A stretch of 64,000 nt of DNA from Torymus aiolomorphi. Lineage: Eukaryota; Arthropoda; Insecta; Hymenoptera; Torymidae. The DNA is taken from assembly GCA_036365515.1 (NCBI GenBank), contig CM070873.1:68569529-68633528 (forward strand). The letters run 5' to 3'. The position numbers and the translations under genes were made by a program. Below, piece after piece: positions 1-53,970 of this stretch. The notes beneath the pieces were generated by a model. That model saw nothing but the letters and a program-made list of their open reading frames with translations. It searched no databases and was not told the DNA's origin. How positions within the stretch are numbered: position 1 is the first letter of the stretch; every line of letters begins with the position of its first letter.

Positions 1-260
1 ACGATGATGAGGGCAGCTCTCGCGTGGTATATATACGCCTGAATTTCGTGGTGTTTGTTATCGCCTGTTTTTTTTTTGCAGGGGGATGGGGACGGCTCAA
101 TCCGTGGTTTTGTACGAGGTAGCCGCGTGTGATATTGCGAAAGCTTGATGATGGATGCGAGGGGATGGGGTGGCGAATTAAATGTGGTGATTTTGGTGGG
201 ACGAGAGGTGAGATGGAAATTTGGAGGTTGGTGAGGCAGAGCGGCAAGTAATTTTCGGTT
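1..260. other. G-rich right shoulder of an island cut by the window edge
   Basis: No gene seen. The plus strand is strongly G-rich: in 181-240 I count 27 G and 2 C. This matches the right shoulder of the islands described further on, so the island core probably lies just left of position 1. Confidence 0.6.
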
Positions 261-880
261 GATTGATGTCGCTTAGAACATTCAATGTTTTGATTTATTT
301 TTGTTGGTCACGAACAGTGTCGGTTGAGAAATATGATTGTGAAGAGATGTAAGAGCATATTAGGTTAGCTTTGTTTTGGTTATAGAATTTAAAAAATTTA
401 GTCCATTCGGTATTAAATTGATAATAGAGTATTACGATTGCGATCTAAAAACGAACATTCTTTTCTATTTGTATATAAAAATGCACAGTTATTTTTATTG
501 ATTAGATATTTTATCTGTTTATATATACTCTTATTTATACGAATACCTATATATAAAAACTATCCCTATGGATAATCGATTATGACGTAATATTTACGAT
601 AATTTCTTCATAAAAGTAACATCTTTTCATTGCTACAGTTTCACAAAAAGTTCTACAACAAATGAAGGTTTATATCCCTAGTATTTATTTATTCTCTTTA
701 CTGTACAAAAACTCTACCATTATTTTAAATAACAATATTATATTACGTATAATTCGAAATCTTCTCTCATATTCTTACTCTTCCAGCTCCTATATTTATT
801 GCGACTTCCTATTATACCAACTCGCTCAATACTATACAGACCAAAAAAAAGAGAGGATAAATGCCTCCTATATAAACTCC
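261..880. other. AT-rich inter-island DNA
   Basis: AT-rich sequence with scattered short TA runs. No open frame with protein-like composition, no RNA gene and no transposon ends recognised. Towards the right, C and A rise as the next island is approached. Confidence 0.6.
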
Positions 881-2040
881 GGCATCTGACCTTAGATAAA
901 CCGTGGCGAAGGTGGCACACGCGCGCTATCACCATACACACACATACACATTACATACATAACACACGGGAGAAAAATAAACTCTTTCTCCAGCGAAACG
1001 GGCAACGACATAATCAGCTCATAAATTGCTATAAGCCCAGTGGGTGGTTATGTCACGCCCTCTCCTCTCCCCTCCTCCTACTCAACTCTTCCTCCCTAAG
1101 AAAGCCTCTCCTATTTTTATACGCACCTACACACACCCTCTCCGCGGGTAGTAATAGCTGCCGCACACGCGCGCTTATGAATCGAAGAAAGGCCCGATTA
1201 AAAATAGTCTACACTTACACGCACCGTGGAAAATCAATTTCCAACCCTCTCTCTCTCTTTACACCCACAAAAAAAGCTCCGATGGCTGGAGCGGGGTGGG
1301 GACCGAGAAAGAGGAGAGAGCGCGCCGGAGAGGTGCGCACGTGTGAGAGTCGAAAAACGGCGGGGGCGTCGGGGTGGGGATATTCGTGCTCTGCTCCTCT
1401 CTCGCTTGCTCGCTCGCTCCCCACCCACGCGGCCGCTCGTCGTTTTCACGGTCAAGCATATTGATTTTCCCGCCGCCGACGACGACGACGACGACGCTCC
1501 GCCGCTGGCATGAGGCGGCGCGGAAGGAAGAGCGAGCGAGAGAGAGAGAAAAGAAGAAGCTAGCTCTACGCGCAAGCGCTCGCTCGCTCTGTCGGCGCTC
1601 TTGGAGTGCATCCAAAGGCCGTTGAACCCGGGCGAGCGAGAGCGCGGGTATAGCGTATATATACAGAGACGCATACATACACAGAGAGCCATCAGGCGGC
1701 TTTTCTGGCAGCGGCGCGCTGGCTCGCTCGCAGGCGCCGTATAATGCGATAATTGTTGAATCCTCGCGAGGGTGGGAACGACGGGGAGTTGTCCGAAAAA
1801 TTAAAGAGTTCGTTATTGCAGGAGTGGGAGAGTCTAAACGAGATAATTGCCGTGAGGGGCTGGGCGCGCGCGTTTGGATTAGGTGTGAGAGGCGCGCGGG
1901 CTTTGTTTTGGCCTGACGCGCGGCACGTCGTATACTGTGCCGGGGTGTGTCATTGTGAGTTATGCGGTTTGACATAAGGCGCTGGATTAGGTCATTCTTT
2001 TCGGGGATTGTGGTGATTTGTTGGATTTTTTTCATTGAGC
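881..2040. other. GC/CpG-rich island with skew flip
   Basis: The left shoulder (about 880-1260) is C/T/A-rich and the core (about 1280-1740) is CpG-dense with CGAGCG and GACGAC runs. The right part (about 1760-2035) is G/T-rich. Open frames of up to 258 codons overlap on both strands here, but they consist of Arg, Ser, Ala and Leu runs produced by the simple sequence, so I do not call them genes. A promoter or other initiation region is possible. No clear TATA-plus-initiator pair or splice site decides it. Confidence 0.55.
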
Positions 2041-2380
2041 TTGTACAAAGAATGAAATAAGAATTTAATTGACGAATTTAAGGTCTTGAAATAATCAATT
2101 TTTATGGTTCAGTAAACTTTAAGTGTTACTTTATTAAAAGTAACTTTCAGTTTACGAAACACCGTGTTTGTAAACGATCCATCAAGTATATCCAAAGGAT
2201 TATATTATTATTGTTATTGAGGATTCATTTGTACCTCTAATTTTATAAAAAGTAAAATTGTGCATTTTTAGTTTTTAACAATTTTTAATAATTTTGGTTC
2301 AAAATTAAACAACCAATTTCGTTGTGAATAATAATATTCAATTTATTTATTCCAGTTTCGCCATACAATTCCAAAAACCT
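2041..2380. other. AT-rich inter-island DNA
   Basis: AT-rich sequence with no gene or element ends recognised. Confidence 0.55.
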
Positions 2381-3060
2381 TGAGCAGCAGTAGTAATATC
2401 AATCAACACACTGCTACGCTCCCTCATACTTCCTAAACCTCACTTCCGGGCGCATTCCCTCACCCCAAGCCCATACCACCGCATCTCACTCCCGAATTCC
2501 CCGTAGCGTCTTACCGAAAGCCCCTCTCTCTCCCACTAGCACTGAATTACGCTCGGCGAGATGGAAGCGAATTGCCGCAGCTCTCTCGTTCTCCTTTCTA
2601 ACTAGACACGCAATTTGATCAACATGACGCGCGAATCGCATCTCTTTCTCCTACCCATCCGCGCGCACGTGCGGATTCCTATGCTCCTACTCGCTAGAGA
2701 AATTCGAGCGCCCTCGCTCTGGCATCGAGAGATTTCCGATTAGCTTTGCCGAGGAAGCGAGAGAGAGAGATATGACGCCTCCTCGAGATGAGCTTTTCCT
2801 CGCGAGTCTATGGTGAGAGAGGAGGTTCTAAGAGCGCGCACGCGATGGTGAAGACGACGCCGCCCGATCGATTGTGCTTGACGATTTCTCTAGTATCCGC
2901 TGATTCTCGCGCGATGGAGATGAGAGAGTTTGCGTTGTGGGGAATTGGTTTAGCGTTGTTTGAAGGATTGTTATTGGAAGTATTGAAAAGAGAGAATGAT
3001 TGTTTGGCACTTTTTGATTTTGAAAAATGTGTTTTTGTATAGAAAAAGTTTGTTGTATAC
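2381..3060. other. GC-rich island with strong skew flip
   Basis: The left shoulder line 2401-2460 has 25 C and 6 G; the right shoulder line 2941-3000 has 19 G and 1 C. The core carries CTCTCT-type tracts on the left and GAGAGA on the right. No credible coding frame. This is one of the clearest examples of the recurrent island architecture. Confidence 0.65.
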
Positions 3061-3206
3061 TTTGAAACTGATAAAACGTATATTTAATCTGATAGTTGAA
3101 AAAGATCAAGTAGAGGGATTAAATCAAATGTCAGTTTTATTTATACACGATGATCAGTGTGTCGATTGTATTTTCTTAATAAAAGGGTATAGATATATGG
3201 AGAAAA

Positions 3207-4085
3207 TAACTATACACGAAAAAAAAGTTTCCAGTAAAAATTACTCCTTCAATGACTAAAATTTAGTAAACTGTATAGAAAACTGGGGACATACTCGAAA
3301 TGTATTGAATCTTAGAATCCACTTTACCAAATTTTAGTATTTCGGAAACTCAAGTGGAAATTACAATAAAAAAATGTTTTTTTGCAATCTATATTACCGA
3401 CGTTATATTTTAGATTGCGAATGCACAGTAGAAGAAATAAATAATTTTTTGTATTTGAAAAAAAAGCAGAAAGCTGGGATCGGAACCCGAATCCGCTGCG
3501 CGAGAAGCCGCAGTCTTATCGCTACGCCAACGTGCACTTACACGAAAGACGTTTCGACTCGCCTATATATGCTACAGCTTGTGTAGTTCCACAATAGGAC
3601 AAATTCGACATCTTAATAAGTTAATTAACTATTTGTTTCACGAAGGATGTAGTACACGAGTTTCCAAATTAATAAATATTTGTAAAAATATGCAGGTTAT
3701 ATTTTATAATTAATTTTATAGAAGAGAAGGTGATAAGTAAATCTCTTTTGAGGTTATGTCGACTTGCTGATGTTGTCATTAGTAGCATTTTTGGTAAAGT
3801 GACTCGTAGAAATTGCTACAATTCTATCAAATTTTAGGAAAGTGGCTCGTAAAAATTGCTACATCTTCTATCAAATATTAGTGTTTTGAAAATTTAGTAT
3901 ATAGTAAATACTACATTTTATATAAGTAATGTAGCAAATTTTATAACCATATTTATTTATTTTTAAAAAGGTGTATACCATTAATTGCTAAAAATATATT
4001 AAATATCTTGAGAATTTGAGTATGTCCTCAGACTAGTAGAGAAAATAGTAATTTTTAATGGAAACTTTTTTTCCGTGTAACTATA
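3207..4085. mobile_element. Non-autonomous DNA transposon with 8-bp TSD
   Basis: Imperfect terminal inverted repeats begin CACGAAAAAAAAGTTTCC at 3215 and end with the complement at 4077. Similarity continues inward to the GGGGACATACTCGAAA / complementary TTTGAGTATGTCCTCAG region. The element is 863 bp and is flanked by an exact 8-bp direct repeat TAACTATA (3207-3214 and 4078-4085). An 8-bp duplication is seen in hAT and a few other cut-and-paste superfamilies; assigning hAT is inference, as the TAACTATA target does not match the usual hAT preference well. There is no transposase frame, so it would depend on a partner. A tRNA-like segment lies inside. Confidence 0.75.
3462..3565 (-). mobile_element. 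tRNA-like, probably SINE-head segment inside the transposon
   Basis: On the minus strand there is an A-box-like TGGCGTAGCGA followed about 30 bases later by a B-box-like GGTTCCGATCC (9 of 11 with the GGTTCGANTCC consensus). A possible 5-bp anticodon stem CTGCG/CGCAG lies between them. The stretch ends in a T-run next to AT-rich DNA. The acceptor stem does not pair well and the loop is 8 nt, so this is not a functional tRNA. A tRNA-derived SINE head or tRNA pseudogene fits best. Confidence 0.45.
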
Positions 4086-4123
4086 TATAGAGAAACGTAA
4101 TTGATACATATATGTCAAACGGT

Positions 4124-4655
4124 ATATGAGGAGTTTCACGTCAACTGTCCCAGCGCGCGGCGCGCGAGCCCTAAATCGTGCTATTTCTAACTCATGTTTA
4201 TGATACTAAAATGTACTTAAAAAAATTGTTTGATAAACGTTTTCGGCGTATTTTTTCCTCAGCTTTCCAATGACGTAAGCAGTTTTTCCAAAATTTTAAA
4301 TTTCCACCTTCAAAAAGTACAAAACATGTTATATCTCAAAAAGTGTATTTTTAATATTTTTTTTGACCCTCTAGATCGAAAGCTGAGCATTTTTTACGTA
4401 GAAAAGGATATTTTCCAAAGAGTGCCCGAGATGTTTTTTGCGAGAAATAGAATGCGAAAGCGTTTTTGAAGATGAAAATGGAAAATTTTGAAAAAACTAC
4501 CTACATCATTGGAAAGCTGAGGAAAAAATACGTCGAAAACGCCTATTAAACAATTTTTTTAACTACTTTTTAGTATCATAAACATAAGTTAGAAATAGCA
4601 CGATTTAGGGCTCGCGAGCCGCGCGCTGGGACAGTTGACGTGAAACGCCTCATAT
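4124..4655. mobile_element. Long palindromic (foldback-type) element, 532 bp
   Basis: Nearly the whole unit is an inverted repeat. The left arm starts ATATGAGGAGTTTCACG and runs through a GCGCGCGG block and a CAGCTTTCCAATGACGTAAG segment; the right arm mirrors these and ends at CTCATAT. The arms differ at scattered positions and in the size of an A-run, and the centre is an AT-rich spacer. No coding frame. If transcribed it would fold into a long hairpin. Confidence 0.75.
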
Positions 4656-5760
4656 TTATCTTTGAACACCCACAACACAATCAATAAATCCAAAACTTTT
4701 AAAATCTTATCTTATTAATATTATTATCTGCACATATAATAATAATACATTTTTATATTATCCCAACTGTACAAAGTTCCACCCATTGTTTACCGTAGGT
4801 GTCTCCAACCTCCCAACAACACCGACCCAACCCTCGTAAAACAGGCCCAATTCAGCCTAATCCCCGGAAAAAAGCGAAAATCCACTCAACTTTTGACAAA
4901 TGACGAGCCACTGCGTTTCCTCCTCCGCATACCAAAAAAAAGGCGACGCGCACACGCAATTCTCGCGCACGTGCCCATCTTCAACTTCTCTCCTCTGTCT
5001 CTCTCTCCCCCATAAGATACAATCGGAATCCCCTTACCCTCATACGCGCGCGCGCCCTTGGCTGGCTTTTCCCGCGAGGCGCGCGCGTGGAAAACAAACG
5101 AAGGCGCGCGAGAATGAGGAAGAGAAAGAGAGGATGAAAAGCGCGAGGCAAAAAGGGACGCGAGAGCGACGAAAAGCAGCGGCGAGATAGACGACGACCC
5201 CCGTATGTGTGTGTGTGTGTTTATCGAGTTAGAAGCTTTGAGCCGAGTGAAAGTGGTAAGTAGCTGCGAGCGAGAGCGTCTTTTTCGCATCGCTGTGGCT
5301 TATTGATTGAGGAGTCGGCAGGTTCTGATGACGCTGTGTCTATTTTGAATTTCTAAGGTGCTGAAGGTGCTGCTGGTATGCGGTGGTAGTAAGTTGGAGT
5401 GCGAGAGGAGCTGGCCCGATTGAAGTTCGCCGGGGAAGTTTAGAAGTTGAGTCTGGTGTACTTCGACGGCTGGTTTGAAGTTTAACGGATAAAGAGAGCA
5501 TTTTATTCCTCGGCGTTGATAGAATTTTCGACTGGATGGTTCAGCATTTATATATTTCATTAAGAATTTGTGTGAAAAGGATATTGTAAATTCAATGAGA
5601 AACTGATAAATTATGGAACAACTGTTCACTAAAAGTTTCTGTAGTGTAAGGATAAATTTTTTGTTTTAAATGAAGTAAAAGATCAAAATATATGCCCATA
5701 TTTTACGAGAATTAACAACAAAAAATTAATGTTCTATTTAAAAATAGCAAAGTTCAATTC
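4656..5760. other. GC-rich island with skew flip, then AT-rich DNA
   Basis: The left shoulder (about 4740-4900) is C/A-rich. The core (about 4900-5290) holds CGCGCG runs and (GT)n near 5210. The right shoulder (about 5290-5480) is G/T-rich and includes a splice-donor-like GTGGTAAGTAG near 5250. From 5540 on the sequence is AT-rich. No gene supported. Confidence 0.5.
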
Positions 5761-7130
5761 AGGTATCATCCAAAAGCTAAAATGTACAAACACTTCAAAT
5801 ACAAATAACAAACTCTCCGAAGGGAAAGCCCATCATCCTCGACATACCCCTGAAACATCCCGAAAATACACAAAGACATCGCGTCGCTCGTAGACGAAAA
5901 CGAGCGCCCGCGCCCCTCCGGAAAAATCCATAAAGAAAAATTCAACGCATCGCTTGAGAAAGAGAGTATATCGAGCTATCTTTCTCTCTCTCTCTTCGCT
6001 CGCTCGCACAAAAGAAAAAGACGCCAACCTCGAACACGTTATACACACACGTGTACAAACCCATATACACAGAGAGAGAGCCGAACGATCGAGCGAGAGA
6101 GAGAGAGAGAAGGGCGCGAGCGCAACAACGATGTATTTCGGTGCAGTAGCGCGCTGCATGCACACACCGCGAGCGAGCGCTCGGCTAGAGGTCAATGCCC
6201 GTCCTTACTCCCGACCCGAGGAGAGAGCGCGAGATAGCGGCCGCTCATGCCGGGCGCGCATGCGCCGGGGGGTGCGATAGCTCGTCTCGCGAGCGCTCTC
6301 TCTCTCTCTCGCTTCCGAGGGTGGAGAGGTAGAGGAGAGAACGAAAGAGAGCGAGAGAAAGATGAGGAGAAAGAGAGGCAGAAGGAAGGACGGTAAATGA
6401 GAAAAATGAACAAACATCCGTGAGAAGAAGAGAGAAATGGAGCGAGCTCGTATGTGTGTTTCTTTCTCGAAGAGAGCGATCTCCTTTAAAGCCTGACCGG
6501 CTACGTCACGGACCCGCGCGCCCACCGCTCATTGATTAACATTTGAATTCGCGCGCGCGTGAGATGCACTCGCTTGTTTTTGCATACGCGCAAAGATGCG
6601 CGAATGCAGTTCGGGGAAAGAGCCTTTTTTCGCGCATTGTCATGCGCGCGGGTCGCAGAGGTGATTTTTACATTGAGGGTGAGGTGATAAGGGCAGTTTG
6701 GCGAAATGCAAGTGGGGTAATCGGATTCCATATTTTGTGAAGAAAATGGGACGTCCGCGGCGCGAAATACGGGGAATATTTTTTCATGGATTCGTGCAAC
6801 ATTTAAATGAAAATGTATAGCATTGTTGTAAGACTTACAATGAAATGGTAGTGTAAATATAGCATACGTGCGAGTTATCCTTGACGTTTGACTTACCTGA
6901 AAAGAAATGTTTTTATTAAATCGAGGTGAATTGAAATATCGCATTTTGTCAATAATTTTTGTATAATGAAATTTACATAATATTCTATAAGAATAGGACT
7001 AGTAATATTTGTTTAATTATTGTAAAAGTAATATAGGAATTTTATGTATATCAATGACTAAAACTAAGAAAATTAATGATAAAAATAGTGCCCATCAATT
7101 TATGAACATGTTATAAAAATCTCGATAAAA
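5761..7130. other. GC-rich island with GA/CT tracts and skew flip
   Basis: The A/C-rich left shoulder (about 5780-5880) leads into a core (about 5880-6560) with GA tracts near 6100 and a CT tract near 6297-6311. The right shoulder (about 6590-6730) is G-rich. The remainder to 7130 is AT-rich. Open frames of up to 147 codons are low-complexity Arg/Ser/Leu frames and are not called. Confidence 0.5.
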
Positions 7131-8310
7131 TATCCGCATCGTTAAAACTAAAACACCAGCCCCCACATATCACAGGCGGAAAAAGATCAGCTGGAGATCA
7201 CACAGTTATTACGCGTCCGCGACGCGAGAACCGACGAACGAGAGTAGAAGGAAGAAGTGACGAGAAAATCGCGGTAATGTTCGCGTATTATCCGATGCCG
7301 GCGTCGCGCACGCGCGGTGAAGTAATCCGCCGGCAATGACCGGAATGAAAAAGAGAAGAGAGAAAGAGAGCCGCGCAAGTGTTGCGCTCCTGTCCCCCCG
7401 CGACGCGCATACATATTTCTTCTTCTCTCGCGCTGGTATACGCGGCCTTCTTCGAGATTAATTCCAAGTTTTGTTTGTCACCGCGTTGGCGCGCTCGCTC
7501 GTGGCGATTTATGCGTAATTTTGTATTTGTTGCGTGTTCCGTTGACTCCTATGCTTGCATGAATAAGGTGGTGACATAGGTTGTAATTTCGTTTTGCGTA
7601 ATCTGGCAGATTAAGGTAGCTTTATATTTATGTTTGATTCTATTATTTACGGTTTTAAAAGGTTGTCTATGAAAATTTATTTTTGTCTTTTTTTGTTAAA
7701 AATGAATTTTATATTTTAGTCCTATTAAGAGTTTTAAAAAAAAGTTATCAACTCATTTCACACATATTTGCTATGCATTTGCGAATGTAAATATCTCGTT
7801 TTTAAAAAATTATTACAATTTCATTTTCATATATTTTAGCATTGTTTAATTTGCGACTTTGTATTATTATGTCTCTTTGTCAATAGAAAGTTCAAACTTT
7901 ATAAAGAACCTGCTCTCTTTCTGGAGTTTTTCAAAAAGAACAATCCGAGCATTAAAAGCCACCCTCGTTTCTTAATCATTTGTAAAATGAAATTGATGAA
8001 GGGTGAATGGCAGACGCACGGAAAAATCGAGGCGAAGGGAGTGGCATTTTACAAGGGGTTTTGCAGAAAGGGAAAAAGAGCGCGCGGAGGGACACGAGCG
8101 GAGGGTAGCGATGTCATAAGAAACAATGATCACGCGAGAGAACCCTCGCCTAGTTCATTCAAAGGATTAAAGGAGTGAAGTCCGAAGTGGGCGGAGAGGC
8201 ACGGGGATGATGCGCAAATGAGAGAAAATGAATTGTAGAAGGGAGCAGGAATTGCAAAATGTTGGAAAGGGATGAGTCATCGTCAAATGGTCGCCGTAAT
8301 ATAGCAGTGT
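7131..8310. other. Two GC-rich islands separated by AT-rich DNA
   Basis: Island one spans about 7140-7610: a C-rich start near 7150, a CpG-rich core, and a G/T-rich end. Island two spans about 7900-8280, with C-rich sequence near 7960 and strongly G/A-rich sequence from 8020 to 8280. The DNA between them is AT-rich and empty as far as I can see. Confidence 0.5.
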
Positions 8311-8480: not shown

Positions 8481-9308
8481 TAAAGAAAATTAGTATTCGT
8501 TTTGTAAAATATTTTATGCTGACATTCGACAAACCGATTCGCAATCTTTAAATATCTTATTTATAAACTTCCCTCACATTAGCCGTTTACAAGGTATAAG
8601 TGCGTTATATATAGTACCCGCAAGCGCGTCAATCGCACCCAATACACGCCACAAATTGCTTTCAACTACGTTGTCGCTCACCCCGAGCTGCCCCAAAATC
8701 GCACCAAAGCCTATAGCTTTTACCACTGACACGCGCAATTACTATCGCAAAATTAGCTCTCCCTCTCTCACTCGACAATCCTCATTCGCGCTTACCCCAC
8801 CCCTCTGCCCTAAATCATCACCGACTTCAAACCCTAACCTCCCTTTCCCCACCTCTCTAAATCTCTTTGAACTCGCGGCCGCAGCAGCGGCAACTTGTCG
8901 CTCGGCCCCGGCCATCCGCGTCCAAACAAACAGTAGCGCCTGCAGCCCCGCCGAAATTCGCACGCGCGCGCGCGTTGCGCTCGTAAAATCGTACCCGCGC
9001 ATGTATAGAAGAGAGAAAGAGAGAGTGTGTGTGTGCGCGCATTTACGATCGCCGCGTATAAATACGAGCGCGTGGCGGGTAAAAATATAGGGTAAGGGCC
9101 GATGGTTTCGATGATTCGCGAGAGGAAAAGAGAGAGAGAGAGAGAGAAGACTTTGTCGAAGTGCGTTGAACTTTTCAGAGCTTGCGGTGGTAATTGGTTT
9201 GACAGCTTGGTTGTTGGTTTTCCGAAGATGGAGTAGTGGTTATTTGATTGGTTGTGTTTTTGTACATGAATTTCATAAGAAGTTAAGCTTTGTTTGATAT
9301 TTAATAAT
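8481..9308. other. GC-rich island with skew flip
   Basis: The left shoulder (about 8620-8860) is C/A-rich. The core (about 8870-9070) has GCGCGCG and GTGTGTGTGCG runs. The right shoulder contains a (GA)n tract at about 9127-9148 and then G/T-rich sequence to about 9260. No gene supported. Confidence 0.5.
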
Positions 9309-9564: not shown

Positions 9565-10800
9565 TCAACATTTTCAATGACCAATTATAAGAGGAATAGA
9601 ACATATGTGGTCAGTAATAAAACATAATAATTAAGTATTTATACAAAAAAAAAAATTGTTTGAATCACAAAAGATGGAATTTAGTCTAACGGTTTTACAA
9701 ATCGTTATTCGCCGAAAAATACAGTTGAAGCTTTGATTCTGATAATTTTTTTCCGACTTACAAAGATCAGAGGCATCTGTCATGACATGATTTCAAAATA
9801 ATCTCGAATTCTCGAGAATTACAATTCATCGGTTTTATATATGGACTTCCATAGCTTTCTTTTAAACTTAGACATTTCAATGAGTCATTTTATATACAGC
9901 CTCATATCAGAAGCATAATTATTTCCATAACTCTCAAAGAACAAAAACACATAATTTAAATGTGCGCAGTCATTGAACCTTGCTAAACAACCGATCTCCA
10001 AAATCTCTCAAAATAAATCAATCTTTTAATTAACCCTATTAAAAAAAAGGCCACACACTAAACGTATACATCATTACAACATTCAATCCGCACGCGTCCA
10101 CAACATTAATCAGCCCCACCTATACCCAACTCCATCAGCAGCCCATTATCGACCAATCCATCACCGAACCCACACATAAGAACCAGCCGCCGCACGACGA
10201 CTCTTACACCGCGCGAATCGCGCTCTCTTTTCCTCCTCCTCCTCTGCCTCTCTTGTGCGCGATGTCATTGCTCCCGCGGTTGCGCGCGGCTGTGTAAAGA
10301 AACCGGCGAACTGCAATTATTGCGACTACTCTGGGCGCGCGCACACACGCGCCGATAATGAAGCTGCTCGAGCTTGCAAACCCGGAGCGAGAGAGTTTAC
10401 TGCTCTGGTAACGCAGTTACCGATGTGACGAGAGGTAGGTGCGTTAAAGATGATGGGTGATGACGGTGGCGATGACAGGGGCGCGGAGTGAGAATGGCTG
10501 AGTGAGTTGGTGTTTGATTGCGAGAATGGACGGCGTAAGGGTATGGAGAGAAGGGAAGGTTTAAAAGTTTTAATGAACAGTGTAATGCAGATAATGGGCG
10601 GTGTAAATGACGTACCAATGGTCGTGTGCATATTTGAAAGTCTGTACAGTCTCATTTATATAGACGTCGTTAAAAATATTTCAAGCGCAAAGTGGATTGT
10701 CTCTTATTAATCAAGCGTCTATAATGCTTTTTACATTCTTTATCGTGTAGGTGAAAAATCGTATTTTCAATTAAATTCTAGCTTAATTTTACGTATTTTA
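9565..10800. other. AT-rich DNA then GC-rich island with strong skew flip
   Basis: AT-rich to about 10010 with no element ends recognised. The island spans about 10030-10640: line 10081-10140 has 25 C and 5 G, while line 10441-10500 has 28 G and 7 C. AT-rich DNA follows to 10800. No coding frame that looks like protein. Confidence 0.6.
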
Positions 10801-35511: not shown

Positions 35512-35597
<86 letters not shown>

Positions 35598-42120: not shown

Positions 42121-44600
42121 TATAGTTACGCAATTTTCACGTAATCAGGCGCGCGCATTCCAGCACCAAAAACGATCTAAAAAAAATTTTCAAAAATCCA
42201 AAATCAGAATAATATTGTAATAATATACATTGTACGATCAGCGCGTACGCATGGAAAAAAAAACAGCACAAAATCATAACGTAACTGTCGATATGTCCAA
42301 GAAATACGTTAAAATGGTGTATAAGCTTACATTTTTGTCGCGTCGATGATCTGCCATCAATGTAAACGCCAGTGCAGATATCCTCCCTCCTCGGCGAATG
42401 TCCTCAAGTCCCGGAAGAGTCGTCCTCCGCGGGCGGCGCGTGCGCGTGTGTGTTCCTCTTTAGCGGCGAACTTCACCGACGACACTCACGATCATCATCA
42501 TCGTCATTTGCACGATCGTCGATAACATCGTCCGTCCCTTTTCCGACACTCTCTCTTGTTTCTTTTTTTTTTGTTCACCCTCGACGCGTCTCTTCGTGGG
42601 TACAACGCACTACCACACCACTTTGAACTTTCGCGCGACGACGATACGGCCGTGTATGCGTGTGTCTGTGTGTACGTCTTCTTTAGCGGCGGGTTAGCGC
42701 GGTGTCCTCGTCACAACTGAATGGGAAAAAAACATACAAATGGGGCGTGAGTACACTGAGGTGGCGAGGTTGGTGGAATGTTTTATTTGGATTCTGTTTT
42801 AATTTGTAGGGTGTCCGGTAGTAAAAAGAATATTACAGCGATGTATTGAATGGTATTACGTTTGAGTATTATTATTTTAATTACAAGTTATTGTAAACTA
42901 TATAACAAGCTTTAGACAATGAATATTTGGCATCCATGAATGAAACACCTATCGAGAAAAGCGCACTCGTCAGTAAACCAAAGGAAACAGAAAGGACAAG
43001 TGGAGAATCTCCCCCTCTTACATATATATATATACGCTCTCACGAAGAAGGGGGTCGAAAAAATCGAAAGGCATATCACTCGTATTTTTCCCGCGCGTTC
43101 CGTTTGTTCGGCGTGCGCTCGCTCGCTGGCGTCTCCCCTCTCACTCCGTTATAGCTCGCTCGCTCGGGCGTACCGTTAGCCGGGTACTCTCCGTTTCTAT
43201 ACGGAGCGCGAAAAGAACCGGTACGCACGCTGGACGATGACACGTTAAACTAGATATCGGCTGCTGCGGGGGAAAGTCATCGTTGAAAATTGGAGTGACG
43301 AGTGGCCGCGGGATGATTCTTTTACCGTAAGTAGAAAGGGAAGGAAAAGTCGATGCAAGCACCCTTGCTGTCAAGTGAAAGTATAAAAACAATCGCTTAA
43401 AACGTGGTATACGTAAGGGTTAGCGTATCGTTATGTATATTTAGCGATGCCGAAATGTATAATTAAAGCCGGTAAAAAGACTATTTTGTTTCTCGCATTG
43501 CGATGCGAAATTTCTCCTTAACGATTCGCGTACATATATATAGATATTACCGCTCGCACTTTTCGCTTAACTACTGTCCCTTGCGAAATTCCTTCCCCGT
43601 TTGTCAAAGCAGTTACAACTGAAAATCATGGTAAAAACGTCCATTCAAATAACAAGTATCCCAGAGCCGGAAGGTAATCATCGTTCGGTCGATAAGTGAT
43701 CGAATATTCAATGAACGGTTTCATAATGACCTTATATAACGGCTACCATAGGCCAGTTCGACAATAAAACGTAATCCCGTGTTACAGAATCGCGCCCACC
43801 ACCAAACAATGCGACAATGCCCCTTTCCGAAAACTTCATCATAGCTGTAAACAAAAGTCGCCTTTGACAAGAAGAAACAACACAAAGTGCAACAGCAGCA
43901 GCTTTCCTCGTCGAGTTGCACAACCACCACCGCCTCCCGGAGGAAGAGAACCGCGGGGTGGGGAAAAAGGCGCTAGTTTCCGGTCGTGCCTCCGCGCCGG
44001 AGAATGCAATTTCAGCGCGCGCAGAAGAAACGGCTTTCCGGGTGCCGGCAATTTCCGCGTCGTGGTCGGTCACGTGACGATTCTTTCTCTCTCTTTCTCT
44101 CTCTCTTGACCGACACAATGACGACGACGAGGAGAGTCGCACTTTCTCTCCGCGAGTCGATGAATCGCAAATTTTCAGCCGTTTTAGAGTTCGTTGTCTG
44201 TGACCCCACGCGCGCGCGCACGACACCGTAAAGCCGAGTAATTACCCGACCAGCATTAGCATAAATTTGGTTCTGAAGGAGGAAGTGAACGAGAGCAGAA
44301 GAGAGGGAGAGAGAGAGAGAAAGGTTTTTTGTGCTATGTGAAGTAACGATAGAAGAAACCGTGTTTTTGCCGAGAGTTATGGGGTAAATATTGAATTATT
44401 GAAGAAAGTCAGCCGAAGTAATGCAATGTTATATAAAAATGAAAAGTGGTTTAGTGGTATTCGCGGTGATATAACGTTTTTACGAAGCTACGGCTGGTTT
44501 ATTTACCGTTGAATAAAAGATATAACGATATTTCTCACGGAGGCGAGTATTGTTTTATTGACGATACGTACAGCGACTTCAGTGGAGATCCCATCCCTAC
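42121..44600. other. Three GC-rich islands
   Basis: Islands lie at about 42350-42790, 42940-43400 and 43780-44400. Each is C-richer on the left and G-richer on the right, most clearly in the first (G-rich at 42740-42780) and third (GA-rich at 44270-44330). A (TA)n block lies near 43021-43033. No protein-like frame. Confidence 0.45.
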
Positions 44601-46734
44601 ACTATTACAGTTTTCGAGCGCTCTCTCTGAATATACTAAAACAAGTACGATTATCTAACACTAAACTTCCCTGACTGATCAATATTAACAAACTTTCCTA
44701 TTTAAAAAACGGAAAGCACTTGAAAACTATTCCCAACATCAGCTAGCGCAACCACATCAATCATCGACCTATCGACGCGATTCACCAGCCACCCAGCTGT
44801 ATTTTAAAGCGGTCGCGACCGTGAGCAGGCTTGCCTGCTCTCTCTCTCTCTCTCTCTCTCAACCGAGCACTTGACCTTCGCCGCCGCCGAATATTTTGGT
44901 GTACGCACACTCACGGCCGGTCTCTCGGGCCGATCCGCAGCTGGCGATAAGTCGGTACACCGCCCGCTCGCTCGGCTTTTTATCTAGGCCTCTTGCCCCT
45001 TCTCGCGCTGTTTCTTTTCACGGGCGCGCGCGCGCTGGGTTATAGTTGCACGATAAGAACCGAGCGAGCGAGCGTTCGTTGACACCCGATCGATCAAAGC
45101 GCTGCGCTGCTGCTGCTGCTGCTGCTGCTACGTGTCATCGATTTTAGAGGAGGAGGAGGAGAAAGAATGAAGTTTATGCAGGAACGTGGTGTATTTGATT
45201 ATGGAGATTTGGGCTGGATAAGGAAGTTTGGGAGGAGGATTGATGTTCTATTAATAGGACATAAGCCGGCGATTTTACTCTTTAGATAAAAACGAAGCAC
45301 TTGTTGAGCGCGACCTTTGCAATGCTAATACAACGCCGCGACGTATAATATAAGCGCGAAGTAGATTGTTATCGAGATAAAATTCTATAATCAGCTCATG
45401 CGGCGGCCGAAACTCGTTCGTTCAACTTGCGCGAAGTCCGGGCTATCGCGTAATCGGCAAAAACCCGGCGAATTAGAAGTCTTCGACTTCGCTTTTACGA
45501 GCGCGCGCGCGGAGAGAAATTTCTCTCGCAGCGTGCCGTTAAAGTTAATGCCGGAGCTATGCGGTGTGTGACATAATATAGGAACCTGCTACTGTATAAT
45601 TCGAGCGTGGTGTGCGCGATGATTATTATATCGTTCGTTAAATTTTGAGCAGGTACAAGTTTGGCGAGTGTAAAGTTACGTCCGTTATCGAAGACAATAT
45701 CGCATCGCCTGACCTTTTTCGAGAAAAAGTTGGGTGTTACGAGGCGAGGATAAAAGTGGCACGACGACCCTTCGCGATCGCCATTGAAAATATTTCGTTA
45801 ATTTTAGCCTCCTCGCGTGACCCACTTCGCAAAGTGCGCGTCTTTCATATGCGCGCGCGTGCGTTACATAAAACGAGAGATGCCGGAGAGCGCGCGTGTT
45901 ATCATGCTAAATTGTGCGTAACACATTCTGCAAATACCCCTGTCGCGAAGTTAATGTTACTTCAAACAAAGCGGACGTGTTATTCCCTCTCTCCTCTGCG
46001 ACAATTATATGAGCGCGTCCCCAATTCCAGAGCCGTATTTTCCATTTTGCCACCTACAATAATAATAATAATAATAGTAAGTGTGTACGTATGTCCGTGT
46101 GTGGATGTCGAAATGACGGGACTACCGGAAAAACTGTTTAAACAGTTACTACCGCCTGTTATATACAGATTACTCGCAGCGATAAGGCATAATATAGCCA
46201 CGTAGCTTCGACACGAATAAACTCGCGGTTACAATGTGTATCGCACGCCGTAAATTTTTAACTTTTCAATCACCCTCGCGCGGCCGCCATCAAATCACTA
46301 CCGCGCGCAACACAACACAACTCGCCGCTATATTCCGCAAACTAGAGACCCTACTTCCTCCCCCACCATTTTTCAATAAAATCACCGCGAGCGCGAATAC
46401 CAGTTTTCCACCGCGGCGGTTCATCTATTTTTCAGCCCGCGCGCGTCACTTTTTATATTACACTTACTTTACACGCCGTACACACCAACTTTCTACACGC
46501 GCCACCGCACACCGAGCCGCTCGAATTTCCTTCTCTCGTTTGTCAGCACCTAGGTATATCTCCTCCTCCCGCAGCGCGGCGACTTCGAATCCGTCCCTAA
46601 ATCAATCAAAAACGAATTTCCTCTACTTCCAGTGCGTATAGCGACACACAGAGACCACTTTCACGCGGAAGTGCGTAAGAGTTAATCGCGCGGCGTCGAA
46701 AAAAAATTCCGCGACAATTATATATATATATATA
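44601..46734. other. GC-rich islands with (GCT)n and (AAT)n
   Basis: The first island (about 44640-45240) has a CT tract near 44838-44860, (GCT)n at 45107-45129 and a G-rich right shoulder at 45145-45250. Mixed CpG-containing sequence to about 46210 includes (AAT)n near 46058-46078 and a stop-free 186-codon plus frame (45645-46205) that I do not recognise. From 46220 to 46700 is a C-rich left half-island whose right half appears beyond the element at 46735-47619. Confidence 0.45.
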
Positions 46735-47619
46735 GGGGAGACTGGGGTAAAACCGGAATTCTCAATTTCTCGGTTACTATTAGTGCGATCTATATAATAG
46801 CTATCTTTGAGATGTTCCTATTATCATTTTGTATACGATCGGCTTGTCAAAAATAGCCCCGTGTTGACTTTAGAAGAGGTCAAAGATTTGTTAGCTCGCA
46901 AGATCGTGTTCATCGTAACAGTCATAGTGCGTATAATGTTCCTGTAAGAAACATATTCTTTCAGTATGTATATAATCTTATTTTGAGTCGGGGCAATTCC
47001 GTTTCTTAATTTCACTTTTAATTGCAAAAAATGAACAATTACTTTTTTTTTCGAACTTTGGTGTAAAATCGGATACTTTAGGTTGGGGTAAAACAGGATA
47101 GCTTATTTTCTCTTTTCTTTTTATGTAATGATAAAATAAACTAATAATAGACATTTACTGCGCTGTTCATACATTATACATATAAAATGTATTTGTTTTT
47201 TGGTGCAAAAATGCATAAATGTATTAGAAAGTCATCCCGGCAAAGATGGTCAGAAGAAAATATGGCTTCAGTGATCTTTTATAAAAAAAACGTTAATTTA
47301 TAATTATTAATAAAAGATTTCTTCATTAAACAACGTTTTTACATCATAGTATTATTTCTAGAATGTCGAATACCGCTTAAAATTAATTTTGAAAAGAATA
47401 ATGAAAGTACCCGGTTTTACCCCGATAATTTTTAAGATCGGATACTTTCGTAAATTTCTAATAACATTTTTGACAAATATTTTTTTCGCTAACCAAGTCG
47501 ATTTTCAGCTACCTGAATGTAAACTAAAAACAATTCCAGTGTTAAATATTGTTATTACTTTATTATCTACTTTTAATAAACAATTTCCAAAAAGTATCCA
47601 GATTCACCCCAGTGTCCCC
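46735..47619. mobile_element. 885-bp element with GGGGTAAAAC motifs
   Basis: The terminal inverted repeats are GGGGAGACTGGGGTAAAAC on the left and the complement of GGGGACACTGGGGTGAATC on the right. The GGGGTAAAAC motif recurs inside: near 47084 in the same orientation, and near 47408-47418 inverted (GTTTTACCCC). The interior is AT-rich, with frames under 100 codons and no recognisable transposase. It interrupts a GC-rich island. I do not assign a superfamily. Confidence 0.6.
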
Positions 47620-49920
47620 AATCGCGTGCGTATGCGCGCTTTTGTAATTTTCTCGTTTGTCGCGCGGTGTATATAGCTGTGAAGCGGTTATCGCGGGTTT
47701 GCCATCGGCGCGAGAGCATCGGCGAGCTTTGAGAATTTTCACAGGGAAGCGATCCGCGACGATCGCCCGCTCGTTGCATAAATGCAGTGTCAGTTTAGTT
47801 GCGTTTGAAAGGAAAGAGATTCGAAGAAGAGGCACGGTTGGAAAGTTTGGCGACAGTTTTATGCACAATTTGAGATTTTTTCTTCTTTTTTTGTTTTTTT
47901 TTCAGAACTTTTGACTTGCTCCTAATTTAAACACTTTGTACTTTATGAGTAATCTTCCTTTAATTAAATTTCCTAATCTTTAAAAATTAAATTTAAAATG
48001 TTTAGTGTTTTAATATTTAATTAAACTTCTTCAATTCTGATTTATCTTAAAAGTGCACTAAACTTCTCAACTGTGCTTCTTCTTCCGCAACTGGTGTACA
48101 CGACTCGATGACCACTTCCTCCTCGTAATCTAATTTCTATGATTGCAGTATACTTTCCGACAACGTAGTGCATAAAAATTTACTCAATTCCGGCTTTCCT
48201 TCTCGCTTGCCGAAACCACTACTGTTTCCTCTTCGGTCAAACCGCACGCTTACAATCCACTCGTTATCCTACACCCAAACGGCGGGAAATTCAAATATTT
48301 CCAGCCAATTCTCAAAAAATCTCTTCTCCTCTCTGCACTACCCCCCCGTCAAGCAACCACCACACAGCAGTAAACACTATTGTCCCCCACGTCAAAAAAG
48401 TCCATCATCCCCCACAATCCACACGAACTTCTTTCTCCCCCTCCACAATACAACAAAACAGTCCAACGATACACCTCGCGCACGCGCGAATTGCAACAAT
48501 TGCACAGGAGACGCAGCTATGTCGCAGTTATACTCTCTGTATCGCGTGCATATAACGCTGTTGCAGCGAGCACAGCACACGGCGTGCGCGAAACTCGTCT
48601 AGCCTAGGCCTCGGCTGCTCTATTCGCGGGCGCCGCGCTCGGAGAGAGTTTAGCCTGCTGCTGCTGCTCCGCTGCGCCGGCGACGACGACGACGACGAGA
48701 GGAGAGAGAGAAAACCCTTTCTCCGCCGCGCGCGCGCGAGCGCACTTCCTCGTTGCAACGAGCGAGCGAGCGAGCCCCCCGACCAGCAGCGCTAGGCTAC
48801 ATGGTTAGCTAGCTTTGCTCGTGTGTGTGCGTGTGTATGTGATGTTGTATGCACCGAGCGCTAGCTGCTCGCGGAAAGCGTGTCACGCCGAATATCGCGA
48901 GAGAGACAGTGGGTGGGTGTGGGGGAGCGCAGGACAAGGTCGAGGATGATGATGCGCGCCGGGGTCCTGGGTGGAGGTTGGGGTGAGGTAGGGTGGAGAA
49001 GGGCGGGTTGGAGAGTGCGATTGTTTTTTTTTTCGTAATAGGTGGATGATTAGTGATTTGAATATTTTTAAATTGAGAAAGATCCAGGTATTTCGTTCAT
49101 GAATGCAGGTTGTCAAGAAAATACAATAAAACTAAAGGTGCATAGCTGTAGATGAAATTTTCATATTGTATGGAAAAAAAACAATATTTTAGTTTTTCTC
49201 GTATCAACTCATAATAAATTTACTGTCATTTCATTCCTATTTCAAGTTGCTTCAAATCGTAAAAATATCATGTTTCAACGAACGTGCAATTTTAAAATGT
49301 TTCCTAAGAATAAGTTAATTGTTAGTCATCGTGATTCATTGTTTGTATCGATCCAATGTTTGTTTCAGTTCACCTAAGATAGAAACGCTAATGGCATACA
49401 GATAAGACGTCTGGAATCTAACAAACATGTGTCGCTGTATAAGAGTTTCTTTCATTTTATGTGTAATAAAAAAGCTTGCGCTCTATTGATATAAGTTTCA
49501 TTCTAAACAGATATCCACGTATCGTGCAATTGAAAGGGCCAATAAAAAAGTCGATTGCGCTTATTTAATGTATGTAAACAAACAGCAACTATAAAAGAAT
49601 ATTGCACTGGAAAGAACGAAAATCTATAACCGTTTCTTCAAACGCGACATCATTTTAGATCATTCATTACGACTTCTCTTCAACTCAATTCGAACCTGTA
49701 CACAATCTTATTTTCAATTCACAGCATACATCTGCTGCCGAATACTGTCAACCGATCACTTTCACAGTACCCAGCATTTTGAAATTGCACGTTCGTCATT
49801 AATTTTCATTTCGTTATGTAACTGAAGCAACGGAACCCCGGGCCCACCTAGATCGTTCGCGAATTCAGCGAGCAATTATTTTTAGTGAAACAACGCCGCG
49901 CGTTACATCAGCGCTCGCGA
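47620..49920. other. Right half-island, a strong skew-flip island and AT-rich DNA
   Basis: 47640-47860 is G-rich and completes the island cut by the preceding element. A second island spans about 48070-49020: line 48361-48420 has 24 C and 5 G, and line 48961-49020 has 36 G and 4 C. Its right shoulder includes a run fitting the canonical G-quadruplex pattern (48980-49007). From 49030 to 49920 the DNA is AT-rich with nothing recognised. Confidence 0.6.
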
Positions 49921-52450
49921 ATTTGGCGATCGATGAATCACCGGCGAAAACAGAAATTTTACACTAACCTTCATCTCATCCCAACTTCCTCGATTTTCTC
50001 CTCCCTGGATCTATCGCGTAGTCCTCCGTGGCTCCAGTTTTTCTCTGACAAGTGAATGCAGATTTATTTCCTCGCTTATCCCAGCCGAAACCCACGAACC
50101 ACAGAAGCTTACATGTATATCTTACCGCGCACTTTCCCGTCCTCACTGTTTCTTGACTCTCCCCCCACCCCCCCTGCACTATGAAAACTTGTACACACCT
50201 CTCTTGCAAAAACCACCACAGTGTCACTGCCTATAGTCCCCAAAAAAACCGGCCGCGCACTGCACTGTCACTTGCTGCCGGCGAAAAGCGCGCGACAACA
50301 CCGTTTTTTTCTTACTACTTCCTTTTATCTTTCTTTTTTTTTGAGGAAAGAAAAGCACACACAGAAGCTCGCCTGCGCGCGTGCGCTTCCTCCTCCTCCT
50401 ACTTCACTTCGCCTCCTCCTTCTCCACTTCACTTTCTCTTCTCTACTTCCTCTTACTTCCGCCTTCTCTCGGCCGGCGCCTCACCGTTCACTCTCTCTCT
50501 CTCTCTCTCTCTTCACTCCGAAAACACAAAGATTTCTCACTGTACTACTCGTTCTTCTTCTACTTCCTTCGAAAATCTCGACACAGAGACACGGATCACA
50601 GACACTTCCTCCGAGTTCGTCCGTCCTCACAGCAGCAGCACACAGCACACACCGTCGTCACCGTCAACGCCGTCGTCGTCGTCGAGGAGAACCTAGAGAA
50701 CCTCGCCGCGTTCGTTCGCTCTCGCCTCGCTCTCGCGCGCTAGCAGCCGGCAAGCAGCGAGCCACTGGGGTCAATGACCTCTCCGTGCCGTCGTCGTCGC
50801 GCTGAGGTTCTCCTCTCCGCGCTCTCTGTGTGTGCTCTCTATCTCGCTCGCTTTCTCCCCACCTCGTGTACATTCGCCCGCTCGCGTATATATACCTATA
50901 TACGTACATATATATGTCTCGCTCCCCGTATATACCCGTGTGTGCGTGTATGCGTGCCTATATGTATATACGTGTGCACGCGGCGGGGCGAATTCGTTTC
51001 TCCGACTTCTCCTCTCGCGCCGCGCGCATATGGGTGTACACGCTATGTATGTGTGCGAGCGTGTGTATATACGTTGTATACGTACGCCCCCCAGCGCTTT
51101 CCGCCCCGCCGTACGGTGCTGCTTCCGTCTCGCTCTCGCTTTTAGCCGAGCGCCGTTGCTTTCTCTCGCGTAGTAAGTACATGTCACTCTCTCACTTTCT
51201 CGCACGCGCGCGCAGTGGTCGGGATGTGCGCTACTGCTGCGGCTGCCTCCCCTCTCGCGCCGTTATGCGCGCGCGCGCGCTCGTCTTTACGCGGTGCTCT
51301 CACTCTCGCTCGCGCGCGATGTGATGCAGCAGCAGCGGTATCTCTCTCTCTTTTCTCGTGTATATGTATATGTACGTCTTATGCTGCTGCACTCGCGCAC
51401 TGACACGAGCAGATGCGTTCACGCGACTCTCTGTGCGCGAGCTGTGTTTATGTCTTTACTGATTTAAGTGAGAAATTACGTGTTTATACTTCTATACAAG
51501 TATAATATGTAATAACTCATGTTTTTTTTTGTATATGTTACTGCTTTATCGAATATGCAAAAGTTGACGAAAGTCTATACGGAAATTTTCATCATTCGTC
51601 GACATTTTGTCATCACTTTTCAGTCATCTTCGTCATTTTTCATTTCCGCTACAAAGGCCGCCTTTATATTCTCATCTGTCTCCACTCCTAGACCAATTCG
51701 AACCACCACCACCAGAGCGAAAAAGGCACAGAGAGAGAGAGAGATAGAAAGAGAAAAGCCCCCCTACATTTCCCTACACCGTCACCCTCGCAGGCTACCC
51801 TACCTGCCCCTCTCTCTCTCTGATGGTGGGGATATCGTGAAAAGCCGCGAGGAGAACAATAATCCCCCTACCACCCCTCCATTCTCCCCTCTCTGTATCC
51901 ACCCAAAGGGGGTGGGTACGTAGTCGCGCGCGCACAGTATTCCCCTCTCATCGCGCGCGGCGGGGAAATCGACGGCGGGTTCACTGGTACAGTGTACCCT
52001 CGGCGGTGCAACGCTCTCTCTTCCTGATTCCGCGAGCTTGCTCGCGCTCCCTCTCTTTCGCTCGTTCCGTTTTTCTCTCTTTTCACGGGTAATGCCGCCG
52101 CTGCACGCTAATGCAGCCTGCAGCCCGTTGTTGCGCCGCCGCCGCCGCCGAGACGGTACTTCTTCTTTTTTCGATGCGACGTCGTGGGCGTATGTGTGTG
52201 CTGTGTTGCACGCGATCGTTGGGTTATTATCTTGGATGTTGGAAGGAGGATGATGGTGATGAGTCAGAGATGATGGGTGATTTGTGGAGCTTTTTTGGGC
52301 AGAGGGATGGGAGAGAGAAAGAGAGAGATTAGAGTGGAATGAGAAGGGAGAGAAAGAAGAAACGATTGATTGTTTTTGATGGGAATTAATTGGGATGAAG
52401 GTTCCTTTGAAATGTCAAAGTCAAGTTTGTGTCCGTGAGAAATGAACATT
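49921..52450. other. Large GC-rich double island
   Basis: The longest GC-rich block in the window. About 49970-50240 is C/A-rich, 50280-50700 is CT/CTC-rich, and 50700-51460 is mixed CpG with TATATA and GTGTGT alternation. A second unit follows at about 51640-52330, ending G-rich (52230-52400). Overlapping frames of up to 194 codons on both strands are Ser/Leu/Arg low-complexity and are not called. Its size makes it a plausible promoter-associated region, but no exon could be identified. Confidence 0.5.
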
Positions 52451-53102
52451 GGATTGATGGGAATAGGTTCGCGAAACGCGAGTGTGCGGCGCCGGTATTC
52501 CCTGATGCGGATTATTAATTTGAAGGAGTTATTTCGACATTATGCTACAGCAGAAATTTAAATCTGTATCGTTTGTATATATACTTGTTCACTCAATTTT
52601 AATAAATGCTCTTTGATTTAAGATATTAGGTAGACACTAAGCTGTAAACGACCGTTGGATTCTTATTCACTTTATAAATGATTTGATACTTTAATAAAGT
52701 AAAATGAAATTATATTAATATTAATTTGTTAGTCTTATTTTTATCGAAATTATTGTTAACGTGCTGTTCTGGAAATACTATTTTAATTGACAATTATACT
52801 TATCTTTATAAAGCAAGTTACATAAAATTATTTATTTTAACACAATTCTATAATTTATAATGACAGACTTATTCGTAATGAAAGGAATTAAATAGCAAAA
52901 ATCCCTCTTTGAATTACATTCGTTCATCCAGCAAATATCCAAATTCCATTACACCATGGCCATCTCCAACCGACCACTATATAGAAACTTCTATATAAAC
53001 CACACGGCGATCTTCCACAAACAAACCTTTATTCAAAAAACTCTCGCGACGACAATTGTCAATTCAGCCCGCCCCTCATCCGATATCTCTCGATCCGCCG
53101 AC

Positions 53103-53105
<3 letters not shown>

Positions 53106-53153
<48 letters not shown>
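53106..53153. repeat. (CT)n microsatellite
   Basis: Uninterrupted CT run of about 48 bp on the left side of an island. Confidence 0.95.
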
Positions 53154-53158
<5 letters not shown>

Positions 53159-53582
53159 TGAAAATAGAGAGCCACTAAGACGACGCTCGGTCGAAAATAA
53201 CCATCGAGCTTCCATCATCTCCCGTCACTCTCTTTCTCTCCCTCGCCTCGTTGCATTATAACGCGCGCCCCATCAGCGTCGCACTGAGTATAAAGACATA
53301 ATCGCGGCCACCCCGAAAACCCCATCTCGCAATCACCATACGCAGCTCTCTCTCACCCGCTATGGCGAGAAAAGGGTCAATAGCGAGAAGAGGCCAGGCT
53401 CGGCCTGGTATGCCGTGTCCTTGTGTTCGCGCGCGCGCGAGAGAGCGCGTGATGGATGGGGCCGACATGTCGCACGCTTCCGCGCGAGCTTTTTTAAGGT
53501 CAACGCGCCTGCGGAGGAGGCGTCGGCCGAGCTCCTATATAGCAATGTATATAGCAGTGACGATTCTGGGGGCGCGCATGTG

Positions 53583-53585
<3 letters not shown>

Positions 53586-53631
<46 letters not shown>
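53586..53631. repeat. (GA)n microsatellite
   Basis: Uninterrupted AG run of about 46 bp on the right side of the same island as the (CT)n at 53106. Confidence 0.95.
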
Positions 53632-53634
<3 letters not shown>

Positions 53635-53970
53635 CGTACGTTATATACTTGCACACTGACGCGTGTGTGAGGTTATCGCCAACGTGAGGGAGCGAGCAAG
53701 GAGAGAGCGATAGATGCGTGGGATGACGAACTATTTTTACAGTAGTCGGTGTGAGAGGCCGTGGAGGAATGCTGGCCATAGAGAGAGAGAGAGAGAGGAT
53801 TATTGTTGTTGTGAAAAAGCGAGGAAAGTTATTTTGTTTGATGAGAGCAACGATGGTGGTGGTGGTCGGACATTGGATTACAGGGTTTGGGGAGTAGGAT
53901 TTTTCTTTATGACATTTGTGGAAAATTAATTGTCGCTTAATGGAGGAGAAAGAATCGATTACAAAACTTC

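Follow-up and report, generated by a model that had tools for sequence, protein, structure and literature searches.

GC islands with a two-sided strand-skew flip in the genome of Torymus aiolomorphi

Two-sided flips in strand composition have precedents in vertebrates, at divergent promoters (PMC3882496) and at replication origins (PMC6547456, PMC9645720), according to the excerpts of these papers on which we draw, as we do for all the literature cited here. This study concerns a dense array of GC-rich islands in the hymenopteran Torymus aiolomorphi, most of which exhibit a flip of this kind. The array was analysed in a stretch of 64 kb (contig CM070873.1, 68569529-68633528), hereafter the window, of a genome comprising 1.08 Gb in 21 contigs.

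In mammals, head-to-head coding pairs are described as having two inverted GC-skew peaks, and promoters with upstream antisense transcripts as having weaker ones (PMC3882496). Like the islands reported here, mammalian divergent CpG-island promoters have a GC-rich centre, C-rich sequence upstream and G-rich sequence downstream, in a mirror-symmetric arrangement within approximately 500 bp. They are located at genes, however, whereas here dozens of islands follow each other, one per 1.3 kb, and no ordinary gene was recognised; the likeness is one of composition, and transcription from the islands is putative. Vertebrate origins share with the islands a local GC peak, an inversion of both GC and AT skew and a CpG-island character (PMC6547456, PMC9645720, PMC9303276). 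Their skew extends over more than 2 kb on each side (PMC6547456), in contrast to approximately 0.5 kb for the islands, at which initiation is likewise putative. Enhancers forming R-loops (PMC7901872) are regulatory elements whose non-template strand is G-rich, a property that the islands may share, but the excerpted data come from mammalian cells and the R-loops are described as unidirectional, unlike the two-sided islands. In an insect, the honeybee, bidirectional enhancer RNA clusters mapped by cap analysis of gene expression (CAGE) give paired outward transcripts from elements of approximately 400-560 bp (PMC13207783); only 842 such clusters are reported, and the main text nowhere uses the terms skew, CpG or GC content.

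A first-pass annotation, made by a reader who had only the letters of the window, knew of no description of such an array in an apparently gene-free region. Among the matches listed in the literature searches, no such array without recognised genes was described outside vertebrates, which is weak evidence of absence given that few subscription papers were covered, and no islands of this kind were described in the nuclear genome of an insect or another non-vertebrate; the two-sided flip itself, as seen above, is known from vertebrates. The matches listed for Nasonia and GC skew were mostly mitochondrial or bacterial, judging by their titles and the beginnings of their abstracts.

The strand-skew flip and the island array

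The window has a GC content of 41% and a CpG observed/expected ratio of 1.42. Calling on Gaussian-smoothed GC yielded 45 islands, 41 of which end before 54.5 kb; unless indicated otherwise, the results below refer to these 41. With microsatellites masked, GC skew was found to rise from C-rich to G-rich, left to right, in 37 of the 41 islands (p = 1e-7), and in 35 without masking. The mean rise was 0.348, compared with -0.009 ± 0.063 for circularly shifted island sets. Twelve alternative island definitions gave the flip in 93-100% of islands (27/27 in the best case, 40/43 in the worst, 39/40 in one variant). The minima of cumulative skew, which are the C-to-G turning points, fall inside islands in 35 of 39 cases, compared with 5 of 40 for the maxima, where the turn is reversed; the centres of the valleys between islands show the opposite change, as necessarily follows. 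T also rises over A from left to right, although more weakly (33/41 masked, 31/41 unmasked). Simple repeats were considered as the cause of the flip and rejected, since masking of microsatellites leaves it intact. The dense array with a skew flip that the first-pass annotation had reported is thus real, and the six pairs of 60-base counts that it quoted are all exact.

Its statement that every island flips was too strong. Although 37 of the 41 rise in the same direction, a stricter rule requiring an outward z > 2 on each side of an island leaves 21 two-sided islands, together with 4 right-only, 4 left-only, 9 with neither side significant and 3 with other patterns. In 4 of the 8 one-sided islands, the weaker side lies at z 1.8-2.0.

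The bias is confined to the island and its immediate flanks. On the strand read outward, GC skew is approximately 0 at the island centre, +0.35 in the last 100 bp within the edge and +0.29 in the first 100 bp beyond it. It decreases to +0.10 at 100-200 bp and to +0.02 at both 200-300 and 300-400 bp (33 and 25 flanks); at more than 400 bp, where 12 flanks at most are left, values scatter between -0.01 and +0.14, and individual wide valleys are noisy in skew. Measured from flip points that were picked from the skew itself, the bias is maximal at approximately 200-350 bp and has disappeared by approximately 650 bp. Two inverted GC-skew peaks lie within approximately 500 bp. The strand bias outlasts the rise in GC: over the 100 bp immediately beyond the edge, GC is close to valley level while skew is still present. 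In these 100 bp, the outward strand contains A 0.308, C 0.117, G 0.213 and T 0.362, compared with A 0.341, C 0.149, G 0.155 and T 0.354 at 200-300 bp.

Most of the asymmetry is compositional. Strand ratios of triplets track single-base composition (r = 0.98), and the bias is carried by non-CpG positions: outward GC skew reaches +0.49 when CpGs are removed, and CpG-bearing triplets show less strand bias (for example, 465 CGA compared with 465 TCG).

With regard to the array, midpoints of neighbouring islands are separated by 1300 bp on average (median 1250, standard deviation 466 bp), with a mean island length of 700 bp and a mean gap of 609 bp, and islands cover 52% of the window. The regularity noted in the first-pass annotation is modest: the coefficient of variation of spacing is 0.36, compared with 0.49 ± 0.07 under random placement (P = 0.012). 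Nor does the array end at 53930, where it had been bounded; it continues for at least 50 kb to the left of the window and thins out toward the right, island density being 5-9 per 10 kb through most of the array and 2-3 at its right end. As at CpG-island divergent promoters and enhancers, the centres are rich in GC and CpG, with a median CpG observed/expected ratio of 1.35, 9.5 CpG per 100 bp and 17.8 CGCG per kb (37 window islands). CGCG density is highest at the flip point, about as CpG density predicts, the expectation being an estimate. Given that the CpG observed/expected ratio of the valleys is almost the same as that of the islands (1.31 compared with 1.36), these are not islands of CpG protection in the vertebrate manner.

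Flipping islands elsewhere in the genome

Twenty stretches of 10 kb, sampled at random from five contigs of 157-267 Mb, gave a different result for GC islands taken without selection. The flip was present in 32 of 52 (p = 0.13) and the rise of T over A in 39 of 52, so that it is false to say that all GC islands flip. The picture changes with strong islands, defined by at least 8 CGCG per kb and a length of at least 400 bp, a rule chosen after the list of islands in the random stretches had been viewed. Here 14 of 15 flip, with skews of +0.28 and +0.38 on either side of the island edge, compared with 18 of the other 37 GC-rich segments, with edge skews of -0.04 and +0.07.

In the DNA flanking the window, the flip was observed in 9 of 9 strong islands and in 15 of 18 islands of any kind, and in all 4 strong islands at loci sampled for another purpose. 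The rule for strong islands and a prediction of at least 90% flips were written down beforehand for the 30 kb further left; the prediction was borne out by 13 of 14 strong islands, and T rises over A in all 14. When islands of every kind are counted, 72 of 78 flip over 134 kb of contiguous sequence, and 69 of 71 pooled strong islands flip in the same direction. The flipping islands thus look like a genome-wide class of elements that is unusually dense in the window. Extrapolation from the 15 strong islands in 200 kb gives approximately 81,000 genome-wide (95% interval 46,000-134,000).

Possible causes of the strand bias

A mirror-symmetric, short-range and mostly compositional bias toward outward G and T indicates a process that begins at the island centre and acts differently on the two strands. 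The first-pass annotation had proposed bidirectional initiation, of transcription or replication, combined with strand-biased mutation in the germline, and the direction, mirror symmetry, island-centred range and mostly compositional nature of the flip agree with this. We infer a mutational cause, action in the germline and transcription rather than replication: our preference, which is tentative and falls short of calling the explanation probable, is for divergent transcription that leaves CpG-rich regulatory elements, extends over a short range and is active in the germline. A strong island would be such an element, either enhancer-like or an orphan promoter, from which RNA polymerase II would start in both directions in germline cells. 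The transcripts would be short, a few hundred nucleotides, and the exposed outward non-template strand would gain G and T and lose C and A, which on the forward strand would leave the right flank G-rich and the left flank C-rich.

In the 100 bp adjoining the edge on the outside, C and A are reduced and T and G increased, as C-to-T plus A-to-G changes on the outward strand would predict. Transcription is preferred mainly because of the short range of the bias, which resembles that of the intervals from -500 to +500 bp used for comparison at mammalian divergent promoters in the excerpt of PMC3882496. The specificity of the flip for strong islands is counted in its favour as well. Clearly one-sided islands (18523-18922 and 26119-26718) are also easy to accommodate with transcription. 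However, since half of the eight one-sided islands barely miss the threshold on their other side, the weight given to transcription was lowered and that given to replication raised slightly.

Several observations weigh against transcription as the writer of the bias. The skew of the islands, 0.35-0.5, is far above the GC skew of >0.1 given for the 5' ends of primate and rodent genes in the excerpt of PMC2927911. GC skew and TA skew are not positively correlated across individual sides (r = -0.20, p = 0.09, 74 sides), which counts against a single simple mutational bias. Context effects remain beyond composition, with chi-square values per degree of freedom of 4.2, 2.5, 1.5 and 1.05 for 2- to 5-mers; among the 5-mers, the imbalance of AATCC, with 6 occurrences compared with 65 of its complement, goes beyond what composition predicts. 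Sequence signals of transcription were sought around the islands, and neither splice-donor words nor poly(A) signals nor core-promoter words formed a consistent grammar; outward splice-site or poly(A) signals do not, however, define enhancer RNAs. Splice-donor words were not enriched by count over letter-permuted words in 57 islands (GGTAAG ranked 49 of 60, GGTGAG 9 of 30, GTAAGT 63 of 90 and GTGAGT 34 of 60), although GGTGAG is strongly biased outward, 28 to 1, the most extreme ratio of its 30 permutations. For the polyadenylation word AATAAA, outward compared with inward counts in the window were 1 and 12 at 0-300 bp and 23 and 23 at 300-600 bp, and outside the window 7 and 7, and 19 and 40; the deficit of AATAAA, promising in the window, was thus inconsistent outside it. 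TATA words show no orientation bias, and TCAGT, with 12 compared with 1 in one zone outside the window, is balanced over 0-600 bp in 57 islands (37 compared with 34).

The most substantial rival to transcription, although a somewhat unlikely one in our estimate, is that each island is a replication start site, at which mutation during initiation and early synthesis, biased between the two outgoing leading strands, would produce both the GC peak and the flip. The inversion of GC and AT skew at a GC peak is observed at the islands as it is at the origins of three vertebrates (PMC6547456), a model of strand-biased mutation at human constitutive origins yields a GC peak, skews and CpG islands (PMC9645720), and the direction of the flip matches the negative-to-positive jump described for origins in the excess of G over C and of T over A (PMC9303276), as far as the excerpts go. 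A shared centre would also give the correlation observed between left and right skew strengths (r = 0.51, p = 0.001, 37 short islands), but among strong islands it does not reach significance (r = 0.11, n = 29; r = 0.21, n = 28), and it partly reflects island GC and length, the partial r being 0.03-0.44 depending on edge window and island set. Vertebrate origins are skewed over more than 2 kb on each side (PMC6547456), whereas the bias of the islands is mostly over within approximately 200 bp of the edge; neighbouring islands preclude a test at 2 kb, and the value of +0.02 already reached at 200-400 bp confines a replication reading to a short initiation zone and fits poorly with a fork gradient like that of human N-domains. 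The few clearly one-sided islands count against replication as well. So does the spacing of 1.3 kb, which to our knowledge is far denser than any known use of origins.

Selection on the sequence itself is less likely still: G-rich, C-poor outward flanks might be favoured for R-loops, open chromatin or nucleosome arrangement. R-loops at enhancers have been linked to GC skew (PMC7901872, in excerpt), the edge skew is very large for mutation alone and the absent correlation between GC and TA skew fits poorly with one mutational cause, but the asymmetry is mostly one of base composition and G-quadruplex patterns are rare: up to 900 bp from the midpoints of the 41 islands, 4 point outward and 1 inward. 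We give even less credence to meiotic break hotspots, at which GC-biased repair would raise GC and the strand-specific exposure of resected ends would cause the flip. Breaks would produce a mirror-symmetric pattern, and GC-biased gene conversion in the honeybee is very strong and favours CpG (PMC4406589, in excerpt); plain deamination of cytosine in resected 3' ends should, by our reasoning, deplete C from the forward strand on the left, which is the opposite of what is observed. The one match listed in the literature for this explanation concerned mutation rates in the barn owl. Finally, copies of one palindromic or terminal-inverted-repeat element would flip automatically, and foldback elements are present in the window, but for the 41 islands this explanation has a negligible probability and we regard a palindromic mobile element or shared repeat as refuted. 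The arms are not complementary, left halves scoring 20.6 on average against reverse-complemented right halves, compared with 20.7 for unrelated pairs; no alignment is common to any two of the 41, and none of 37 islands in the window or of 18 in the flanks had another copy in the DNA compared. In the random stretches, 13 of 52 islands had another copy in the DNA compared.

Returning to initiation at the islands, it is possible, though we advance it with slightly more reserve than divergent transcription as such, that initiation sites in their tens of thousands, bidirectional, independent of genes and active in the germline, have written the islands and their strand bias by mutation. With the same reserve, such sites may in places be packed at intervals of 1.3 kb across more than 100 kb. 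If initiation is the cause, individual initiation sites would be recognisable with high fidelity from base composition alone, which would provide a map of regulatory elements or origins in an unannotated genome from its sequence only, and a clean test of transcription versus replication initiation as the writer of strand bias.

Individual islands, genes and repeats of the window

The 21 two-sided islands, with outward z values given as left and right, are 879-2010 (3.1, 4.1), 2396-2955 (4.7, 3.3), 4791-5490 (4.8, 4.9), 8600-9211 (5.4, 2.4), 10060-10608 (5.1, 4.9), 10851-11548 (5.3, 3.2), 12785-13391 (6.0, 3.7), 15080-15608 (3.8, 2.9), 17010-17453 (2.1, 4.6), 17799-18249 (3.8, 4.6), 22787-23256 (2.8, 5.3), 24474-25215 (4.5, 4.2), 30040-30631 (4.5, 3.2), 32744-33203 (2.2, 2.7), 34146-34742 (6.4, 2.9), 35413-36400 (4.0, 5.6), 37601-38031 (3.3, 3.1), 43609-44364 (2.1, 2.7), 48155-49061 (6.0, 3.8), 51629-52445 (2.7, 4.3) and 52999-53922 (4.1, 4.1). 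The right side is significant and the left narrowly under the threshold in 5839-6773 (1.9, 4.8), and the reverse holds for 21325-22277 (3.7, 1.9) and 40787-41367 (3.9, 1.8), while both sides of 42292-42788 are close to it (2.0, 2.0). Islands 18523-18922 (-0.3, 3.1) and 26119-26718 (0.2, 3.4) are right-only, and 38918-39776 (2.4, 1.3) is left-only. A long island at 28531-29839 (2.4, 0.7 about its midpoint) probably represents two merged islands, with skew minima at 28909 and 29503.

Two exceptions, at about 12.2-12.5 and 27.7-28.2 kb, had been named in the first-pass annotation, and the corresponding islands are both weak: 12080-12571 (1.4, -0.9) and 27605-28219 (0.0, 1.8) show no significant flip. 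They are joined by ten others. No significant flip was found at 7166-7547 (-0.7, 1.3), 31779-32108 (-0.5, 2.0), 38425-38850 (-0.2, 1.8) and 42975-43431 (0.8, 1.7), nor at the small island 47609-47823 (0.7, 1.1), and the small island 40038-40258 (-1.2, 0.1) has no flip. Island 7986-8308 (-2.3, 3.0) is G-rich on both sides. The long island 19327-20656 (1.5, 1.2 about its midpoint) is probably two merged islands, with minima at 19651 and 20411, and the 2.1 kb block at 44661-46751 (-0.3, -3.7), an exception about its midpoint, probably also consists of merged islands, with minima at 45028 and 46668. The remaining exception is a 1.7 kb block at 49750-51467 (7.3, -3.0), in which the forward strand is C-rich on either side of the midpoint. 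It is C-rich almost throughout and T-rich in much of the block, which differs from the keto pattern elsewhere; the block may represent a unit with one side only, or else a transcript of the reverse strand that was not recognised.

With regard to genes, Pfam scans took in 31 of the 146 window open reading frames of at least 90 amino acids, plus 7 from the flanks. The 27 scanned window frames outside retroelements gave no match at E <= 0.01 and no cellular protein, one DUF7632 match at 0.082 being under its cut-off. To this extent the region appears gene-free, as the first-pass annotation supposed, apart from the retroelement remains described below; given that the scans covered only part of the window frames, small exons and further coding frames may be present, and the region may lie inside a gene, in a long intron or a regulatory domain. 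ARAGORN, run on the window with the bacterial code, gave no transfer RNA, and Rfam gave no match at gathering scores. The period-3 signal is low, the best value among the 45 islands being 2.6.

Foldback elements with long inverted arms are located at 26838-27520 and 4124-4655. The former is abundant in the genome (1718 first-look candidates, of which 40 were scored), and 5 of 6 other copies examined lie within approximately 400 bp of a GC island; this element perhaps prefers to insert near such islands. Seven copies, most of them beside islands, showed no clear substitution asymmetry, the substitutions being too few for a test. A further foldback-like element is formed by 209-bp inverted arms at 58995-59203 and 60004-60212, which are 93% complementary, enclose 800 bp and are partly made of a 28-bp tandem repeat.

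In the flanks, the 7 scanned frames gave two transposase-like matches and no cellular protein. Pieces of a Tc-type transposase (PF01498, E 3.5e-8) lie 18-19 kb to the right of the window (L032:8042-8915), and the flank frame whose best match is named GerE is a helix-turn-helix stretch adjoining a Tc-type transposase piece. Beyond 54.5 kb, the window contains a right-only island that overlaps repeat arms (55698-56015; -0.6, 3.2) and a two-sided one (57260-57928; 2.9, 2.9), both past the range of the first-pass annotation. The reverse strand at 60-64 kb carries the remains of a non-LTR (long terminal repeat) retroelement, with pieces in separate frames, comprising an endonuclease (PF14529, E 7e-11) and reverse transcriptase matches under the curated cut-off. 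Its GC-rich part at 61229-63785 (reverse strand; 1.8, -0.6), which includes PF14529 and a weak RVT_1 match, exhibits no significant flip and provides an internal contrast to the islands.

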